DNA of 64,000 nucleotides from Ignavibacteria bacterium (lineage in GTDB: Bacteria > Bacteroidota > Ignavibacteria > Ignavibacteriales > SURF-24), in NCBI GenBank assembly GCA_025612245.1, contig JAAXKQ010000010.1, positions 1 through 64,000 of the forward strand, in the 5' to 3' direction. The position numbers and the translations under genes were made by a program. This document shows, in pieces, positions 1,241-9,675 of the stretch (position 1 is the stretch's first letter; each line of letters starts with the position of its first letter). The notes beneath the pieces were generated by a model, which saw nothing but the letters and a program-made list of their open reading frames with translations, searched no databases and was not told where the DNA came from.

Positions 1241-4200
1241 ATGACTGTTCAAAAATCCCTTGGCATCTGTGTCGGTGCCTCTACAGTTTCGGCTGTCTTT
1301 TTAAGCAGTTGCAAAGGTGAAATAAGCATAGACGAGACCCGTACAATTGCACACAACGGCAACCCCAGAAAAGTCATTTCGGATTTGTTCGTCAGTAGCT
1401 CTATCCCGGGTAAAATCGCCGTTACAGGAAAAAAATTCAGAAAATTCCTGAACCTTACTTCCATCTCTGAGGCTGAGGCAATTGAATTTGCAGTGAGTAA
1501 GCTCGGACTCTCGAGCGACATTATCATCAGCGCCGGCGGCGAAAGCTTCATGGTCTATGTGCTCGACAGCAATAACAGGATCTCCAGGGTATGCACCGGC
1601 AATAAATGCGCTTCCGGCACCGGTGAGTTTTTCCTGCAGCAGATTAAAAGAATGGACCTCAATATCGAACAGGCAATCTCTTCGGGACTTAAAGGCGATC
1701 CGTACAATATCTCAGGACGCTGCAGCGTATTCTGCAAATCCGACTGTACTCACGCCCTCAATAAGGGAGTGCCTAAGGAAAATGTCGTGGCGGGACTGTC
1801 CAGGATGATGGCACAGAAAATAATCGAGCTTACTTCAAGGGTCCCCCACGAAAGCGCAATTATGATCGGCGGCGTCTCCGGAAACAGGGCCGTTATGCGC
1901 TTCCTCGAAAATTATTTCAAAAGCATTAAAATTCCCGCTGAAGCTCCTTATTTTGAAGCCTTCGGCGCTGCACTTTATGCCCTGAAAAACAATACGGAGG
2001 AGCTTGACCTCTCCTGCCTCTTCTCGGAAAAACATTCACAGTTTACTTTTCACAGACCTCTAAGCGAGTTTCAGCACCTGGTGCATTTTAAGGAATTCCA
2101 TAAGGCTGCACCTGTCACTAACGACGACTGCATCCTGGGCCTCGACGTCGGAAGCACTACAACCAAGGCCGTCCTCTTAAGAAAAAAAGATAACGCAATT
2201 CTTGCCGGTGAATACCTCAGAACTAACGGCGACCCCGTGAAGGCTTCTATCCAGTGCTACGAAAGCATTAAAAGACAGCTTACGCTGCCACTTAGAATTT
2301 CGGGACTCGGCGTTACCGGCTCCGGACGCCACATAGCTGGGCTCCATGCCCTGACAAAAGGCATTATTAACGAGATTATTGCCCACGCTGCCGCTACCAT
2401 CTATTTCGATAAGGATGTGGATACTATTTTCGAAATAGGCGGGCAGGATGCCAAGTATACTAATATTACTTCAGGCGTGGCTTCCGATTACGCAATGAAT
2501 GAGGCCTGCTCGGCCGGAACGGGCTCTTTCCTGGAAGAGGCCGCAATGGAATCTCTCGACATCAACTATAAGGAAATCGGCCACATTGCCCTCATGGCAA
2601 AAAAACCCCCGAACTTTAACGACCAGTGCGCCGCCTTTATCAGCAGCGACGTCAAAAACGCTCTGCACGAGGGACTCTCTAAAGAGGACATCGTTGCGGG
2701 ACTCGTATACTCAATCTGCATGAACTATAATAACAGGGTTAAGGGTAACCGCCCTGTCGGGAAAAAAGTTTTTATGCAGGGGGGCGTCTGCTATAATAAG
2801 GCCGTCCCCGTTGCCATGGCTGCCCTTACGGGCAAAGAAATTGTCGTGCCCCCGGAACCGGGACTTATGGGTGCCTTTGGCGTCGCTCTTGAGGTTAAAC
2901 ACCGCCTGGAACTCGGACTGCTTGAAGAACAGGAGTTCAGCCTCGACGAGCTTATCCATAGAACGGTCGAATACGGCAGAAGTTTTATCTGCAAGGGCGG
3001 GGCTGAAAAGTGCGACAGGAAGTGCCCCGTTTCCATGATTACTGTTGACGGCAAAAAGTACCCCTTCGGCGGCGCATGCAACAAGTACTATAACGTACAG
3101 ATGAATATCCGGGATTCACTGAAGGGCACGGACCTCATAAAGCTCAGGGAAAAACTCGTCTTTGAAAAGTACCTGCACCCCGCCGAGCTAAAGGAAAATG
3201 CCCCGGCAATCGGAATTTCCAGGTCTTTTCTTACAAATACGCTTTTCCCTCTTTATTACAACTTTTTTACGCAACTGGGCTTTAGGGTAACCCTTCCCTC
3301 GGAATCAAAAACCGGGGGCGTGGATAAAAGGGAAGCGGCATTCTGCTATCCAGTCGAACTCGCACACGGATTTCTTCAGGACCTGCTCGATCAAAAACCC
3401 GATTACGTATTCCTTCCACACGTAAAGGAAATCTATAACCCGGGCGAGGAAAACCTTCCGAAGAAAACCTGTGTGCTCATGCAGTCGGAAAACTATTACC
3501 TGAAGGCGGCCTTTAAAGACGAACTGAAAAATCTCCGTGTGCTCGACCCCGTGCTGGATTTTTCGGACGGGTATGAAAATGCCGAAAAGGAATTCGTAGA
3601 GCTCGCTAAAAAGCTCAATAAGGAGGAAAAAGTAGCCTCCGAAGCCTACCGCTTCGCCTGCGGCGAACTGAATAAAATGTTCTCAGAGTTTAAGCAGATT
3701 GGCCGCATGACACTCCATGAAATTGAACAGGACCCCCAAAGAATTGCAGTGGTCGTTTTCGGCAGGAGCTATAATGCCTTTGCAAAAGAGGCTAACCTCG
3801 GGGTGCCGCAGAAGTTTTCTTCACGCGGAATTACGGTTATTCCGCACGACTTTCTGCCTTACGACGGCCTCGAAAGCTATAAACACATGTATTGGGCCCT
3901 GGGCCAGCAGATTCTCAGAGGCGCCAGGTTCGTTCGCAGCCACCCGCAGCTCTTTGCCACTTATATCACAAACTTTAGCTGCGGACCGGACTCGTTTATT
4001 ATCCCTTATTTCAGGAACCTCATGGGGGAAAAACCTTCCCTGACACTCGAGCTCGATAGCCACTCGGCTGATGCTGGGATCAATACGAGAATTGAAGCCG
4101 CACTCGATATAATTAAAAGCTATAGGGAGCTTAACGGAAATAAAGAGCTCCTTACAGAGGATATCGACGGCTATAAGCCCCTTGAGGTCCTAAGCGAAAC

Positions 4201-5650
4201 TAAATTCCTGGATTCCGACGGACGGGAAGTCCTTATTACAGACCCTTCGGTTAACGTCATTGTCCCTAACATGGGTAGGTTTACAACAAAAGCCTTTGCA
4301 GAGGCTTTCAGGCATGAGGGAATAAATTCGGCCCCCCTGCCTCTTTATAACATGGAAACCCTTACCATTGGACGCGGAAATACTACCTGCAAGGAATGCC
4401 TCCCCCTTATACTAAGTACCGGGGCAATGATTGAATACTATGATTCGCGCAAAAACAAGGACGAGAAAACCCTTTTCTTTATGCCCAAAGGCGACGGCCC
4501 GTGCCGCCTCGGGCAGTATCACGTCTACCTCGAAGACGTGATAAAGAAAAGAAAAATGCGGAATATCGGCGTTTATTCACTTTCGGATGAGAATTCCTAC
4601 GAAGGCCTTGGAAACAGGTTTGTTATCAGGGGCTGGATAGCTATTACAATCGGTAACCTGATGACCGAAATCTATCACTCCATTCAGGCACTTGCAGTCC
4701 ATAGGGCTTCGGCTACGAAAATATTTGATGAGGAATACGATAAGATCCTTAAGAAGCTAGGGACAAGCAGCTTCGGGGAGCTTTTTCAGCAGCTTGAACT
4801 TTCGGCTAAAATCCTGAATGGAATTCCAAGAAAGGAATCCATAAGCGAGGCTAAAAAAGTCGTTATAGTGGGAGAAATATTTGTCCGCCATGAGGATTTC
4901 TCAAGAATGGACCTGGTGGAAAGGCTCGTTGAAAAGGGCTTTGTGGTGAAAATTGTGCCGATAGGGGAGTATGTCTATTATTCCAACTACCTGGCTTCAA
5001 AAGAAAGCATCGGAAATGGCGTCCTTTCTTCCGGGAAGTTGAAATTTACCGTGCGCGACTATGTCCAGAAATATATCGAAAGGAAAGCCCGGAAGATTCT
5101 TTCAAAATCGGGCTTCATGGAATTTGACATGCCCGATATCCAAGACGTGCTTAAAAGGGCTGAACACCTCGTAAGCCGCGAGCTCCTTGGAGAGGCAATC
5201 CTTACCATCGGCTCTGCAATGAGGGAAATTATGGACCACGTCTCCGGAGTCATTTCACTTGGACCTTTTGGATGCATGCCTTCGCGTGTTGCCGAGTCGA
5301 TTCTGAACGTTGAGATGAATACAGCCGGAAAATTTGCGGCAGAAAAGAAGAAATATTTCTCTGAGGAAAATGGGGACCTGCCTTTTCTAGCCATTGAAAC
5401 AGACGGGAATATATTCCCGCAGATAATTCAGTCGAAAATTGAGATCTTTATGCTTCAGGCAGAAAGGCTGCATGAAAAACTTAAGGCAGCGGATAAGACC
5501 ATTGCGGATAAATACAAAAACGCCTTTCACCGTCTCATAAGCAGCATAACAGGCACCAAAGCAGAGGCTGCCGAACATTTCCAAATTTCCGTAATGGTGC
5601 CCAACTGTAGGGGCGCACGGCAGTGCGCCCGCCCCGAACATATGAAATGA
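1241..5650 (+). CDS. Giant acyl-CoA dehydratase activase (BadF/BadG/HgdC plus HgdB-like fusion)
   Basis: A 1469-aa protein carrying two ASKHA-type ATPase modules of the 2-hydroxyacyl-CoA dehydratase activator family. The first is about residues 1-250, with Cys123 in a CASGTGEF motif. The second begins about residue 297 (LGLDVGSTTTKAV) with its own CSAGTGSF motif. A DUF2229-like region follows (about 660-880), then a long HgdB-like C-terminal part. Family members use ATP to drive low-potential electron transfer through a shared [4Fe-4S] cluster to a CoA-ester dehydratase or reductase; this very large architecture is widespread in anaerobes but its substrate is unknown. The last ~25 codons (from about 5568) and the stop codon lie inside a repeated REP-like sequence that occurs again at 5702-5758, so the C-terminus is probably a recent replacement. 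Confidence 0.85.
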   Translation: MTVQKSLGICVGASTVSAVFLSSCKGEISIDETRTIAHNGNPRKVISDLFVSSSIPGKIAVTGKKFRKFLNLTSISEAEAIEFAVSKLGLSSDIIISAGGESFMVYVLDSNNRISRVCTGNKCASGTGEFFLQQIKRMDLNIEQAISSGLKGDPYNISGRCSVFCKSDCTHALNKGVPKENVVAGLSRMMAQKIIELTSRVPHESAIMIGGVSGNRAVMRFLENYFKSIKIPAEAPYFEAFGAALYALKNNTEELDLSCLFSEKHSQFTFHRPLSEFQHLVHFKEFHKAAPVTNDDCILGLDVGSTTTKAVLLRKKDNAILAGEYLRTNGDPVKASIQCYESIKRQLTLPLRISGLGVTGSGRHIAGLHALTKGIINEIIAHAAATIYFDKDVDTIFEIGGQDAKYTNITSGVASDYAMNEACSAGTGSFLEEAAMESLDINYKEIGHIALMAKKPPNFNDQCAAFISSDVKNALHEGLSKEDIVAGLVYSICMNYNNRVKGNRPVGKKVFMQGGVCYNKAVPVAMAALTGKEIVVPPEPGLMGAFGVALEVKHRLELGLLEEQEFSLDELIHRTVEYGRSFICKGGAEKCDRKCPVSMITVDGKKYPFGGACNKYYNVQMNIRDSLKGTDLIKLREKLVFEKYLHPAELKENAPAIGISRSFLTNTLFPLYYNFFTQLGFRVTLPSESKTGGVDKREAAFCYPVELAHGFLQDLLDQKPDYVFLPHVKEIYNPGEENLPKKTCVLMQSENYYLKAAFKDELKNLRVLDPVLDFSDGYENAEKEFVELAKKLNKEEKVASEAYRFACGELNKMFSEFKQIGRMTLHEIEQDPQRIAVVVFGRSYNAFAKEANLGVPQKFSSRGITVIPHDFLPYDGLESYKHMYWALGQQILRGARFVRSHPQLFATYITNFSCGPDSFIIPYFRNLMGEKPSLTLELDSHSADAGINTRIEAALDIIKSYRELNGNKELLTEDIDGYKPLEVLSETKFLDSDGREVLITDPSVNVIVPNMGRFTTKAFAEAFRHEGINSAPLPLYNMETLTIGRGNTTCKECLPLILSTGAMIEYYDSRKNKDEKTLFFMPKGDGPCRLGQYHVYLEDVIKKRKMRNIGVYSLSDENSYEGLGNRFVIRGWIAITIGNLMTEIYHSIQALAVHRASATKIFDEEYDKILKKLGTSSFGELFQQLELSAKILNGIPRKESISEAKKVVIVGEIFVRHEDFSRMDLVERLVEKGFVVKIVPIGEYVYYSNYLASKESIGNGVLSSGKLKFTVRDYVQKYIERKARKILSKSGFMEFDMPDIQDVLKRAEHLVSRELLGEAILTIGSAMREIMDHVSGVISLGPFGCMPSRVAESILNVEMNTAGKFAAEKKKYFSEENGDLPFLAIETDGNIFPQIIQSKIEIFMLQAERLHEKLKAADKTIADKYKNAFHRLISSITGTKAEAAEHFQISVMVPNCRGARQCARPEHMK

Positions 5651-5774: not shown

Positions 5775-7136
5775 TTATGCTACTTCAGGAACCTGCTTTA
5801 TGGACTCGCTTAAAACTGAGTCCGGTGCCTCGTAATCTTCCAGCTCTCCTTTTAAGAAGGCTTCATATGCCCCAAGATCCAAAAATCCGTGCCCGGAAAG
5901 GTTGAACAATATCGTCTTGGCCTCGCCCGACTCCGTGCAGAGCCTGGCCTGCTCAATTGCCGATTTTATTGCGTGTGAACTTTCAGGAGCAGGAACAATT
6001 CCTTCGGTCTGTGCAAATATCCTTGCGGCTTCAAAGACGTCATTCTGCTGGTATGCCTCGGCATCAATTATACCCCTGTTGTAAAGGTTTGATATTATTG
6101 GTGAAGCGCCATGGTAACGGAGGCCGCCGGCATGGATCGAAGGGGGAATGTAATTGTGACCCAGCGTGTACATTTTCATCATTGGAGTCATTCCTGCTTC
6201 ATCGCCAAAATCGTATAAATATTCGCCCTTTGTCAATGTCGGGCACGAGGCCGGTTCAACGGCAATTACCTTAAGATCTTTCTTCTCGCCGGTAAGTTTG
6301 TCCTTGAGGAACGGGAAGCTGATGCCTCCGAAGTTGCTTCCGCCGCCAACGCAGGCAATTACAACGTCCGGGTATTCACCGGCTTTCTCCATCTGAAGCT
6401 TTGCTTCTTCTCCTATTATCGTCTGATGCAGCAGAACGTGGTTAAGTACGCTTCCCAGAGAGTAGTTGGTGTCATCGCGCTGAACTGCCAGCTCAACTGC
6501 CTCGCTTATTGCTATTCCAAGTGAACCAGGTGAGTTCGGGTCCTGCTCAAGGATTCTTCTTCCCGACTGCGTCAGTGTGGAAGGGCTTGCTACTACATCC
6601 GCCCCAAAGAGCTGCATGAAGGATTTTCTGTATGGCTTCTGATGATAACTTACCTTTACCATGAAAACCTGGCACTCTAAGCCGAAATGGTTGCAGGCCT
6701 GCGAAAGGGCACTGCCCCACTGTCCGGCTCCGGTCTCGGTAACCAGCCTCTTGATCCCGGCTTTTTTATTGTAATATGCCTGTGCAATTGCAGTATTTGT
6801 CTTGTGGCTCCCGGATGGATTTGAACCCTCATACTTAAAGAAAATCTTTGCCGGCGTCTTTAGGAATTTCTCCAGCTGGTATGCCCTGATTAAAGGACTG
6901 GGACGGCTAATTGCATACAGGTCCAGCACTTCGTCCGGAATTTCTATGTACCTTTCTGTGGTCATCTCCTGCTCTATGATCTCCATCGGGAAAATTGCTG
7001 CAAGATCCTGCGGACTGGCGGGCTGCTTGGTAGCAGGGTTAAGGGGCATTGCAAGAGGCTCCCCAAGGTCCGCCAGAATGTTGTAGTAATTCTTCGGCAT
7101 TTCTTTTACGTCAAGTATAATTCTGTTCTGCTTCAT
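5775..7136 (-). CDS. trpB2: Tryptophan synthase beta chain, TrpB2 type
   Basis: A 453-aa pyridoxal-phosphate enzyme of the TrpB2 subfamily, which makes L-tryptophan from indole (or indole derivatives) and serine. PLP lysine K112 lies in GSHKTNTA; the long N-terminal extension, [22 protein letters not shown] and the glycine-rich [10 protein letters not shown] phosphate loop fit TrpB2 rather than TrpB1. No trpA or other trp gene lies beside it, as is usual for TrpB2. The start is supported by a GGAG-type ribosome site (ACGGAGAC) 7 nt upstream. Expression is probably controlled by the trp attenuator immediately upstream (7212-7398), which ties this enzyme to tryptophan supply. Confidence 0.93.
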
Positions 7137-7211
7137 TTTAGTCTCCGTTTATATTTTTTTTATTGAAAATTTATTTCTTCCCGGGGAAGCCCGGCTGCCT
7201 GTAATTTTGCG

Positions 7212-7241
7212 CAAAAAAAAAGCCGTGAAAATCTCACGGCT
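7212..7241 (-). terminator. Second intrinsic terminator in the trpB2 leader
   Basis: On the minus strand AGCCGTGA (7234-7241) pairs with TCACGGCT (7221-7228) around a 5-nt loop and is followed by a run of eight to nine U residues (7213-7221). Its stem sequence GCCGTGA is the same as that of the upstream terminator at 7261-7291, so arms could also pair across the two hairpins. It lies 75 nt before the trpB2 start. Confidence 0.75.
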
Positions 7242-7248
7242 TTGCTTT

Positions 7249-7291
7249 AAAAACAAAAAAGCCGTGAACAGTGTGTTCCACTATTCACGGC
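7249..7291 (-). terminator. trp attenuator terminator hairpin
   Basis: On the minus strand GCCGTGAA (7284-7291) and inner AGTG/CACT pair with TTCACGGC (7261-7268), followed by TTTTTTGTTTTT (7249-7260). The left arm can pair instead with leader RNA: CACTGTTC (minus strand of 7321-7328) matches GAATAGTG (7279-7286) with one G-U, and CTATATA/TATATAG (7305-7311 and 7291-7297) extends this antiterminator. The two structures exclude each other, as in classical trp attenuation. Confidence 0.8.
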
Positions 7292-7311
7292 TATATAAAA
7301 TCAGTATATAG

Positions 7312-7398
7312 TTAAGCGAAGAACAGTGAAACGCAGTTGTTCCACCACCAACGCCAAGTGTTGTTTACTTCGCTTAATATGTAATTCCCTAGTTTCAT
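7312..7398 (-). CDS. trpL: trp operon leader peptide (28 aa, four Trp codons)
   Basis: Read on the minus strand, ATG at 7396-7398 opens a 28-codon frame ending in TAA at 7312-7314. Its middle reads NNTWRWWWNNC: four tryptophan codons within five positions (7342-7350 and 7354-7356). It sits directly upstream of two terminators and of trpB2, the textbook layout for ribosome-mediated attenuation. A perfect 10-bp inverted repeat (TTAAGCGAAG at 7368-7377, CTTCGCTTAA at 7312-7321) brackets the Trp codons and would form the 1:2 hairpin. A ribosome stalled on Trp codons would disrupt it and free the second arm to form the antiterminator. No clear Shine-Dalgarno is seen before the ATG. Confidence 0.88.
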   Translation of the reverse strand: MKLGNYILSEVNNTWRWWWNNCVSLFFA

Positions 7399-7598
7399 TA
7401 TGACAAATATATGCCTAAAAATTAAAAACTACAAATTAATTCGTCACATCTGCGAAAAAAATTGAAAATATGTACGCACGTGGCTTCGCTCATAACGGCA
7501 TGCTCTATCGCCTGAAATGCCTTGATGTAATTGAACATTAATAAATATATTAAGTATGAATGGGATTATAAACGGATGTAAATTAAATGGGAGGAACT

Positions 7599-8366
7599 AT
7601 GTTAAGAAGCGTAAAAACTCTTGAAGGCTATAAAATCCATGCCCTCGATGGAGAGATCGGCGAAGTTAATGACTTTTTTTTTGACGACGTATCGTGGAAT
7701 ATCCGCTACCTCGTCGTTGATACGGGAACATGGCTTCAGAAAAGACTGGTCCTGATTTCCCCTCATTCACTCGGTAAACCCGACTGGAAAGCAAAACGCT
7801 TTCCGGTAAACCTTACAAAAGAAAAAATCCAAAACAGCCCGTCGGTTGAAATGGACAGGCCCGTCTCACGACAGCAGGAGACAGACTTAAGCGACTATTA
7901 CGGCTGGCCTTATTACTGGACCGGACTCGGGGCCGGATTCCCGGGTGCAATTCCTCCTGTGCCTCCGGCAAGCCTTAATTACCCCGACCAGGGCTTCCTG
8001 AAAGGAGGCGAAAAAAGGGAAAGGGAAGGCGACCCGCACTTAAGAAGCGCCCGCGACGTAATTGACTATAAGATACAGGCAGAAGACAATAAGATCGGTA
8101 ACGTCGAGGATTTCATACTGGAAGACGACCTCTGGAGCATCCGCTATATGGTCGTAGATACTGGTAAGTGGCTCCTTCCGGGCAAAAAGGTGCTCATTGC
8201 GCTGCCCTGGATTCAGGCAATTGACTGGGACCAGTCAAGCGTCTTTGTCAACCTTACCGCCTCTGAGGTGGAACAGAGCCCTGAATACCACCCCGACAGG
8301 ATTATAAATAAGGAGTTCGAAACCGAGCTGTTTAATTATTATAAAAGACCGGTTCCCTGGAAATAA
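7599..8366 (+). CDS. Tandem PRC-barrel domain protein
   Basis: A 255-aa soluble protein with two PRC-barrel domains, about residues 1-80 (LRSVKTLEGYKI, GEIGEVNDFFFDD, WNIRYLVVDT) and 148-235 (RSARDVIDYKIQ, KIGNVEDFILED, WSIRYMVVDT), joined by a linker rich in aromatics, Gly and Pro (DYYGWPYYW). PRC barrels are small beta domains found in photosynthetic reaction centre H subunits, RimM and many stress-related proteins of unknown role. An in-frame ATG at 7587 is possible, but GGGAGGA at 7589-7595 is a strong ribosome site for the ATG at 7599, so I use that. It appears to be monocistronic. Confidence 0.85.
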   Translation: MLRSVKTLEGYKIHALDGEIGEVNDFFFDDVSWNIRYLVVDTGTWLQKRLVLISPHSLGKPDWKAKRFPVNLTKEKIQNSPSVEMDRPVSRQQETDLSDYYGWPYYWTGLGAGFPGAIPPVPPASLNYPDQGFLKGGEKREREGDPHLRSARDVIDYKIQAEDNKIGNVEDFILEDDLWSIRYMVVDTGKWLLPGKKVLIALPWIQAIDWDQSSVFVNLTASEVEQSPEYHPDRIINKEFETELFNYYKRPVPWK

Positions 8367-8457: not shown

Positions 8458-9675
8458 CTACATAAGCTTGAACTGGTAGGGCATTACCATGCGGACTCTT
8501 ACCGGCTTGCCTTTGTCTTTGCCCGGGTTCCACTTGCCCATTAGCTTTGTCACCCTTATGGCCTCCTCATCGCACCCGCCGCCTATGCCTTTTAAGACTT
8601 TTATGTCACTGAGGCTTCCGTCTTTTTCAACTATAAAACCTACTATTACTTTTCCCTGGATCTGTTCTTTCTTTGCCTTTGCGGGGTAAACCACGTTGCC
8701 GGATATGAAGGTAAGAAGCGCATCCTGACCCTTGGGGTATGAAGGCATCTCGTCAACAAACGTGTAGGGCTCTTCATCCTGAAATGATGTTTCTGCCAGG
8801 CTGGTGGTGATGTCCCTTCCACCGTTTGTCATGCCGAAGAACATTATGACAAGCGCCATTAACGGGACGGAAAGGAGAAATTTGAGCTTTGCATATTTAG
8901 AGGACTTTTCTTGTGCTAACATTTCGAACCTCCTTTTTAAGAGTGAATTGAAGTTATTTGTCATTGGATTTCCTCCCGGCCTGAAGGCGAAAGTAAGTAT
9001 CGTGCTCTTGTATTCTATGCTGTCTAAACCCTTGTCTATTACTTCTGTATCTGCTATGAATTCATGCTGCGCCTCAAGCTCCTTTTTCATTAACCAGACA
9101 AAAGGATTGAACCACAGAGAAATTGTAACAGCCTCAAAGAAGACAATGTCAAGCGAATGGAGACTTTTTATGTGCGCCTCCTCGTGCAGAATCAGCGTCG
9201 AAAGCGCCGGATCCTCAAGATTCCCCTTGGGAAGAAATATTGTTTTGAAGAAAGAAAAAGGCGATTGCCCTTCGTCAAGCAGAATGGTTTTATGCCCTTC
9301 AATCATAATCGGGGCGCTGTAATCGCCGAGCTTTGTAATCTGGTACAGCCTCCAGAAAAACCTCACCAGAAGGGCTAAGGAAACTACTATGTACGCAACC
9401 CATAAAACGGAATTTATATCAATCCCACTGTCGGCGGCCTTTATGCCGCCTCCTGTAAGCACGGGCTCAAGATAATAAGTAATTGTTTTCCCGGCTTCAC
9501 CCGAGGGCAGGCTGAACCTGAATAAGGGAAGCGTGATGGAAAAAATCCCCGACGTTAAAAGATACATCCTGTTCATCTGATACATGGTTTCCTTTTTCAG
9601 ACGGGCCATATAGAACAGGTAAAATATCATGAAGCTGAAGGACGACTGCAAAAGATAAAATTCAAAAGAGTTCAT
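8458..9675 (-). CDS. M56 (BlaR1-type) membrane metalloprotease with TonB C-terminal domain
   Basis: A 405-aa protein with N-terminal membrane helices (about residues 5-22, 38-55 and 88-108), then a zinc metalloprotease domain with HEEAH (His164, Glu165, His168) and downstream EAQHEFIAD, a hydrophobic helix (about 263-282), and a TonB-like C-terminal domain (about 310-405, YPAKAKKEQIQGKV, CDEEAI, PVRVRMVMPYQF). M56 proteases of this type cleave BlaI-family repressors in response to envelope signals. The BlaI gene is 11 nt upstream in the same transcript, so the pair is a classic sensor-repressor module. The TonB domain, in place of a penicillin-binding sensor domain, and the nearby TonB-dependent receptor suggest an envelope signal rather than a beta-lactam. 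Confidence 0.88.
   Translation of the reverse strand: MNSFEFYLLQSSFSFMIFYLFYMARLKKETMYQMNRMYLLTSGIFSITLPLFRFSLPSGEAGKTITYYLEPVLTGGGIKAADSGIDINSVLWVAYIVVSLALLVRFFWRLYQITKLGDYSAPIMIEGHKTILLDEGQSPFSFFKTIFLPKGNLEDPALSTLILHEEAHIKSLHSLDIVFFEAVTISLWFNPFVWLMKKELEAQHEFIADTEVIDKGLDSIEYKSTILTFAFRPGGNPMTNNFNSLLKRRFEMLAQEKSSKYAKLKFLLSVPLMALVIMFFGMTNGGRDITTSLAETSFQDEEPYTFVDEMPSYPKGQDALLTFISGNVVYPAKAKKEQIQGKVIVGFIVEKDGSLSDIKVLKGIGGGCDEEAIRVTKLMGKWNPGKDKGKPVRVRMVMPYQFKLM

Follow-up and report, generated by a model that had tools for sequence, protein, structure and literature searches.

A probable tryptophan-responsive attenuator with a relay to a second gate in the leader of a stand-alone trpB2 gene of the Ignavibacteriales

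The DNA region upstream of an isolated trpB2 gene in an Ignavibacteria genome contains a short reading frame rich in tryptophan codons and two consecutive hairpins followed by U-tracts, which raises the questions of whether this leader senses tryptophan and what role is played by the second hairpin. Both questions were addressed by analyzing the window, i.e. the whole stretch of 64,000 nucleotides, along with the corresponding loci of related genomes. The leader of trpB2 is best described as a ribosome-mediated, Trp-responsive transcription attenuator whose signal is relayed to a second gate, a reading to which we assign a probability of roughly 0.82. The core Trp attenuator is very likely real, and the relay that connects it with the second gate is likely.

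The regulated gene and its translation start are located on the minus strand:

5775-7136, minus strand: trpB2, encoding a TrpB-like PLP enzyme of 453 amino acids (TIGR01415, NF009057)
7143-7146, minus strand: Shine-Dalgarno sequence GGAG of trpB2, without complementarity to segment 5 (see below) in the source genome

The deduced protein scored 678.3 against the curated profile cut-off of 518.85 for TIGR01415 and 740.5 against that of 366 for PRK12391, and is a TrpB2 protein. As the first-pass annotation had proposed, the gene stands alone directly after the leader element, and its guess of a host from the FCB group agrees with the assignment of the genome to the Ignavibacteriales. The source genome additionally carries a complete-looking trpE...trpB1-trpA operon on a different contig, and trpB2 therefore represents a second, separate beta-chain gene. 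The gene beyond the attenuator (7587-8366, plus strand) is divergent from trpB2, so that the hairpins in between can belong to trpB2 alone. Its protein consists of two similar PRC-barrel-type halves with a weak match to the photosynthetic reaction centre subunit H. On the other side of trpB2, the plus-strand gene at 1241-5650 specifies a protein of 1469 amino acids in which, judging the translation by eye, a BadF/BcrA-type activator ATPase appears to be fused to a 2-hydroxyacyl-CoA dehydratase-like part.

The following features were assigned to the leader and to its first set of alternative RNA structures:

7398-7212, minus strand: whole attenuator element, comprising leader peptide, antiterminator and the terminators T1 and T2, upstream of trpB2
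7404-7411, minus strand: predicted promoter -7 box TATATTTG, a sequence match, with the leader ATG 5 nt further on
7312-7398, minus strand: leader peptide ORF MKLGNYILSEVNNTWRWWWNNCVSLFFA (...TWRWWW...), 28 amino acids
7339-7356, minus strand: Trp codons 15 and 17-19, including segment 1
7345-7339, minus strand: segment 1, GUGGAAC, with the last Trp codons
7305-7332, minus strand: segment 2, 5' side of the antiterminator, GUUUCACUGUUC at 7332-7321 plus CUAUAUA at 7311-7305
7275-7297, minus strand: segment 3, 3' side of the antiterminator, UAUAUAG at 7297-7291 plus GAAUAGUGGAAC at 7286-7275, doubling as the 5' arm of T1
7255-7292, minus strand: T1, an intrinsic terminator, AGCCGUGAAUAGUG/CACUGUUCACGGCU plus U-tract, stem at 7292-7260
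7368-7377, minus strand: left arm of a 10-bp inverted repeat, TTAAGCGAAG, lineage-specific
7321-7312, minus strand: right arm of this repeat, CTTCGCTTAA, pairing with TTAAGCGAAG

The leader peptide with the motif WRWWW that had been noticed ahead of trpB2 was thus located at 7398-7312 of the minus strand, with tryptophan specified by codons 15, 17, 18 and 19. None of the other short ORFs of the window, approximately 1600 in all, contains WWW, and the run of consecutive Trp codons lies immediately before a gene of the Trp pathway, as is typical of a ribosome-mediated trp attenuator. The Bacteroidota -7 promoter consensus is TAnnTTTG, and about 15 of the 37 leaders compared below have a box of this type 4-8 nt ahead of their start codon. 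With the start codon this close to the predicted promoter box, the leader peptide is probably read from a (nearly) leaderless mRNA. At two loci (L121 and L138) the leader ORF begins a few bases past the 3' end of a tRNA gene, and the attenuator transcript may derive there from tRNA read-through or processing.

The region from 7410 to 7205 is strongly structured, with a minimum-energy fold of -67 kcal/mol as compared with a mean of -40.9 for dinucleotide shuffles (z = -7.4). The 1:2 pairing that is conserved corresponds to the Trp-codon hairpin formed by GUGGAAC (7345-7339) and GUUUCAC (7332-7326) of segment 2. As the Trp codons themselves provide the 5' arm of this hairpin, stalling of a ribosome at these codons would release segment 2, and as GUGGAAC occurs again in segment 3, segments 1 and 3 compete for segment 2. 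The antiterminator announced as well-formed in the first-pass annotation was indeed found, with a main helix of 12 bp rather than the 8 bp given there (GUUUCACUGUUC, 7332-7321, with GAAUAGUGGAAC, 7286-7275), supplemented by CTATATA (7311-7305) with TATATAG (7297-7291); its z-score in the window is -4.0. The Trp codons 15-19 lie within the 1:2 hairpin, segment 2 extends from codon 23, and the stop at codon 29 starts 7 nt beyond the end of the first block of segment 2. Judged from the sequence, this placement of codons and stop is the geometry of classical attenuation. The 10-bp inverted repeat that had been described around the Trp codons is likewise present in the window, but it is not kept in the same-genus leader L005, which has TTAAACAATG instead, and it was therefore rejected as the functional 1:2 pairing.

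A comparison of trpB2 loci revealed a Trp-run leader, an antiterminator and T1 in 37 genomes, the loci L128, L136 and L134 being left out of this count, with these three parts retained in each of the five same-family genomes. Accordingly, the survey of close relatives that keep trpB2 did not refute the proposed attenuator, as the 37 leaders preserve both the Trp codons and the alternative pairing. The Trp clusters read WRWWW, WWWW, WWW and similar, with the remainder of the peptide varying freely, and T1 usually takes the form GCCGUGGAUAGU...CACGGC-U(n). Covariation was measured on an alignment of 24 leaders with shuffled and slid controls. In the antiterminator 2:3, 90.5% of the cells are paired and both sides have changed at 8 of 12 pairs, a degree of covariation that exceeds nearly all shuffles and all slid controls, with z-scores from -1.8 to -5.6 in single genomes. 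In T1 (3:4), 97.5% of the cells are paired and both sides have changed at three of ten pairs. The mutually exclusive antiterminator and terminator are thus accompanied by compensatory changes, as is expected of a trp attenuator. Taken together, sequence and comparison establish the parts of the element, their conservation, the covariation of 2:3 and 3:4, and the complementarity of 4:5 and of segment 5 to the ribosome binding site (RBS) that is described below.

The trpB2 genes with at least 66% identity were found in one branch of the order. A search of 395 Bacteroidota genomes with the covariance model R1 yielded matches in Ignavibacteriales, one match elsewhere in the class (G382, with leader and TrpB2 the same as those of L042) and one false match in G457 that is not near trpB2. 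Within the source genome, R1 detected no site at E < 0.1 besides the trpB2 leader, and no wider use of the element was therefore found. A decayed attenuator was observed at locus L134 (genome G148, 79% complete), where the 3' arm of T1 is kept but the Trp-run leader and the 5' half of T1 are unrecognisable. The trpB2 genes of a further, more distant lineage within the order (about 60% identity) lack the element. This lineage (L020, L022, L023, L143, L145, L150, L152, L153 and L157) has a different short leader that often ends in HTWPWRR or ..WWPxGL, has no visible terminator and may act as a translational or Rho-dependent Trp attenuator.

The question of the second hairpin involves three further segments:

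7258-7267, minus strand: segment 4, 3' arm of T1, UCACGGCUUU, freed on formation of 2:3 in the proposed relay
7234-7243, minus strand: segment 5, 5' arm of T2, AAAGCCGUGA, complementary to segment 4 (relay helix 4:5)
7211-7228, minus strand: segment 6, 3' arm of T2, UCACGGCUUU plus U-tract, forming the second terminator as 5:6
7243-7211, minus strand: T2, second terminator, stem at 7243-7219

The first-pass annotation had described two terminators with identical stems, which did not hold, as the stem of T1 comprises 14 bp and that of T2 10 bp, the common part being the basal AGCCGUGA/UCACGGCU. This basal stem occurs at only three places in the 4.8-Mb genome, and GCCGUG stems were rejected on the same count as the standard terminators of this genome. 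The complementarity of segments 4 and 5 was assessed by a duplex test against dinucleotide shuffles of the downstream stretch, with p <= 0.05 taken as significant. It was significant in 31 of the 33 leaders with a segment 5 and in none of the four without it, the two non-significant cases being L042 (p = 0.17) and L142 (p = 0.07). The same test applied to the trpE attenuators of the group gave no such complementarity (0/21). In the 4:5 helix, 89.2% of the cells are paired as compared with at most 54.1% in slid controls, and three pairs have changed on both sides, which represents modest covariation. L137 shows joint changes in all four arms of the two terminators (GCCGCG/CGCGGC with GCCGC/GCGGC). 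A second terminator, which had been regarded as unusual, is present, but a role within a relay is a better reading of it than a mere peculiarity.

The 33 leaders with a segment 5 and the four without it belong to three classes of second gate. In class I, which includes the window, its family and several other genera, 5:6 makes a second terminator. The variable end of segment 5 tracks segment 6 and not segment 4 in this class (e.g. GCCGUU with AACGGC in L018), so that the 4:5 and 5:6 pairings have no more than a core of about 8 bp in common. In class II, found in Melioribacter-like genomes, the 3' arm of T2 is degenerate or absent, an extended segment 5 reads GCCGUGAAC(UUCC or CC), and the RBS of trpB2, with the sequence GGAGGUUCAC-AUG or nearly so, is complementary to it. 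Of the 15 class II leaders, 14 support this complementarity at p <= 0.022, as opposed to no leader of classes I and III; the RBS complement is lost in L135. Class III (four genomes) has neither segment 5 nor the RBS complement. A tree of the TrpB2 proteins calculated with IQ-TREE united classes II and III in one clade (support 100/100) with class III nested in class II, and placed the class I rows outside. Tree and classes together indicate that the output changed from one type to another with 4:5 staying in place, and that segment 5 and the RBS complement disappeared together. Mainly for these two reasons we judge segment 5 to be the partner of segment 4 and not half of a spare terminator. 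With segment 4 free, the predicted accessibility of the class II start region (-8 to +3) averages about 0.52 as compared with about 0.28 otherwise, with an increase in 14 of 15 leaders; that of the class II Shine-Dalgarno sequence itself is without consistent change.

As to the events themselves, we infer ribosome stalling, the kinetic order of folding, termination, the physical relay and indole as the substrate. At ample Trp, the ribosome would reach the leader stop and cover segment 2, so that 3:4 folds as T1 and transcription halts; with segment 4 locked in T1, segment 5 would pair with segment 6 and T2 would stop any read-through. When Trp is scarce, the ribosome would stall at the UGG codons 15-19 and open 1:2, and segment 2 would pair with segment 3. 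Formation of 2:3 would release segment 4, which could capture the newly made segment 5, thereby blocking T2 and allowing transcription of trpB2. In the Melioribacter-like clade the second gate would consist of segment 5 sequestering the RBS of trpB2 instead of T2. The TrpB2 protein would use free indole to make tryptophan.

Attenuators in general are kinetic, co-transcriptional switches. Co-transcriptional folding was simulated on a chain growing from 7332, with the upstream part masked as by a stalled ribosome. In this simulation 2:3 formed first, and T1 then became more stable by 4-6 kcal/mol. The combination 2:3+4:5 was the minimum-energy fold while segment 5 was emerging and segment 6 was not yet made, and T1+T2 became the minimum only once segment 6 was complete. 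At full length the predicted energies are -42.9 kcal/mol for T1+T2, -37.2 for 2:3+5:6 and -34.6 for 2:3+4:5. As both competing folds are more stable than 2:3+4:5 at full length, the relay is possible only as a kinetic, co-transcriptional switch.

The energies also bear on a rival explanation, according to which a classical attenuator is followed by an independent fail-safe terminator T2 that acts constitutively and owes its likeness to T1 to an old local duplication. It would account for the greater stability of 2:3+5:6 over 2:3+4:5 in the window, for the perfect stem that T2 has of its own in many class I genomes and for the covariation of the variable end of segment 5 with segment 6 rather than with segment 4. 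We nevertheless regard it as unlikely, because class I leaders retain the core common to T1 and T2 despite the rarity of this stem in the genome, and because segment 5 matches segment 4 perfectly over 9-10 nt in class II leaders whose T2 3' arm is decayed or gone (L016, L125 and L126). This match includes a GCC that is dispensable for pairing with the RBS, nothing similar is found in the trpE attenuators, and a constitutive second terminator would cap induction.

Control by a metabolite- or protein-binding leader, i.e. a riboswitch, a TRAP-like system or a T-box instead of a translating ribosome, is very improbable. At the gathering thresholds of Rfam, no family including T-box or known riboswitches was found in the window, and permissive matches to RF04312 and to small-RNA families were well below gathering and treated as shape matches. 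The candidate riboswitch RF04312 was among the top sub-threshold matches, and the similarity lies in a hairpin with an antiterminator region in its right shoulder, followed by a terminator. This Rfam trpB motif is known from Firmicutes and Fusobacteria, where it occurs occasionally before trpB and where its authors left the possibility of an attenuator open (PMC11109978); it differs in that these are other phyla and no Trp-run leader was reported there. Its score of 26.1 bits in the window and 28.4 bits in L138 is far from the gathering value of 59. The Trp-run ORF, with constant Trp codons in an otherwise variable sequence in 37 genomes, as well as the lack of a conserved unpaired pocket outside the helices, also argue against a ligand-binding leader. 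A pair of ordinary terminators of an unrelated upstream transcript with Trp codons by chance would explain two U-run hairpins and nothing more, and is refuted by the divergent upstream gene, which leaves nothing to terminate, and by the conservation of Trp runs, 2:3 pairing and covariation in 37 genomes.

The proposed relay attenuator can be compared with several known systems. In the trp operon of E. coli, the leader trpL contains Trp codons located in 1:2, the alternatives are 1:2, 2:3 and 3:4, and the terminator 3:4 precedes the structural gene. The trpB2 leader shares all of these properties, but it controls a lone trpB2 instead of trpEDCBA, carries a probable linked second gate made of segments 5 and 6 or of segment 5 and the RBS, and is unrelated in sequence. 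The enterobacterial-type Rfam family Trp_leader gave no match between 7100 and 7600, with hits considered up to E = 10. The trp leader of B. subtilis combines TRAP-controlled termination with an RBS hairpin of trpE that controls the start of translation. Trp-controlled termination together with control of translation start resembles the class II relatives, but the B. subtilis system is protein-mediated without a leader peptide, whereas the ribosome would be the sensor here.

The enterobacterial his attenuator forms the stems AB, CD and EF as alternatives to BC and DE (PMC10989985). By analogy, the trpB2 leader appears as a six-segment chain in which the position of the ribosome would set the first pairing and each pairing the next; of such a chain, the trpB2 leaders show strong 4:5 complementarity and modest 4:5 covariation. 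The terminator of his is EF alone, whereas here the middle hairpin 3:4 is already a terminator, and one signal would lead to two gates. Tandem attenuators are known from Salmonella mgtCBR, with two leader ORFs for the two signals ATP and proline (PMC3641672); the likeness consists in one leader having two elements under ribosome control, but here a single leader ORF and one signal would be relayed to the second gate. The Bacteroid-trp RNA RF01692 is listed as a probable cis-regulator in Bacteroidetes (PMC2864571) and is similar as a predicted cis-regulatory RNA that is linked to trp by name and occurs in the same phylum. It was searched at trpE and trpB2 in 19 Ignavibacteriales genomes, none of which reached its gathering value of 49. 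Before a survey in 2010 added Firmicutes, leader-peptide systems were known only in Proteobacteria and Actinobacteria (PMC2965389). Neither an attenuator of a TrpB2-family gene nor such a relay was found described in the open-access literature that we searched.

The remaining question concerns the physiological role of the regulated enzyme, for which the other Trp genes of the group are informative:

8480-8658 of locus L158 (source genome G000, contig C21): leader of the trpE operon, with its own Trp leader peptide

The trpE operon of the source genome has its own Trp leader, MKLQNTTYNFNLTWSFLGSWWRTSIYGDLVN, and a single terminator. The trpE leaders of the source genome and its relatives (L158, L165-L187) likewise have a single terminator of the type ACCCUUCU...AGAAGGGU and are unrelated in sequence to the trpB2 element. 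Such separate Trp leaders are also present at 20 other readable trpE loci of relatives, L171 and L185 being left out of the count, which suggests that the whole Trp pathway is under leader-peptide attenuation in this group. In 12 of 35 genomes with an attenuated trpB2, we detected no match for IGPS and no TrpA above the cut-off, and the TrpE model gave no more than weak chorismate-binding matches; incomplete assembly could explain genes missing from drafts, but several genera show the same pattern. Eight of these 12 genomes are 93-100% complete, and for the five of the 12 covered by the trpB2 search no TrpB1-like match was among the matches listed. According to work cited in PMC11917138, TrpB2 proteins have a high affinity for indole. 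In the pathway-poor carriers, which lack IGPS, TrpA above the cut-off and a true TrpE, the TrpB2 protein is therefore best explained as an enzyme of Trp-regulated indole salvage that can use only indole from outside or from another source. Together with the separate Trp leaders at trpE, these genomes support the earlier suggestion that TrpB2 is a genuine Trp-responsive enzyme, and the attenuator is likely to regulate indole salvage by TrpB2.

In its fullest form, the proposal states that one leader peptide operates two gates in series by means of the freed 3' arm of T1; that the output of the second gate was swapped between T2, which is probably ancestral, and RBS sequestration in one derived clade, and was lost together with its target in a nested group; and that the system regulates indole salvage by TrpB2, including genomes without de novo Trp synthesis. 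This complete version is, on balance, probable. The present data extend leader-peptide attenuation to a conserved Trp regulon in the Ignavibacteriales and suggest a simple design principle, in which a second checkpoint set by the spare arm of a terminator would make repression tighter while leaving induction unrestricted. Genomes that lack the other pathway genes but have a Trp-sensing switch before their orphan trpB2 provide strong circumstantial evidence for Trp-regulated scavenging of indole and thus bear on the role of TrpB2.
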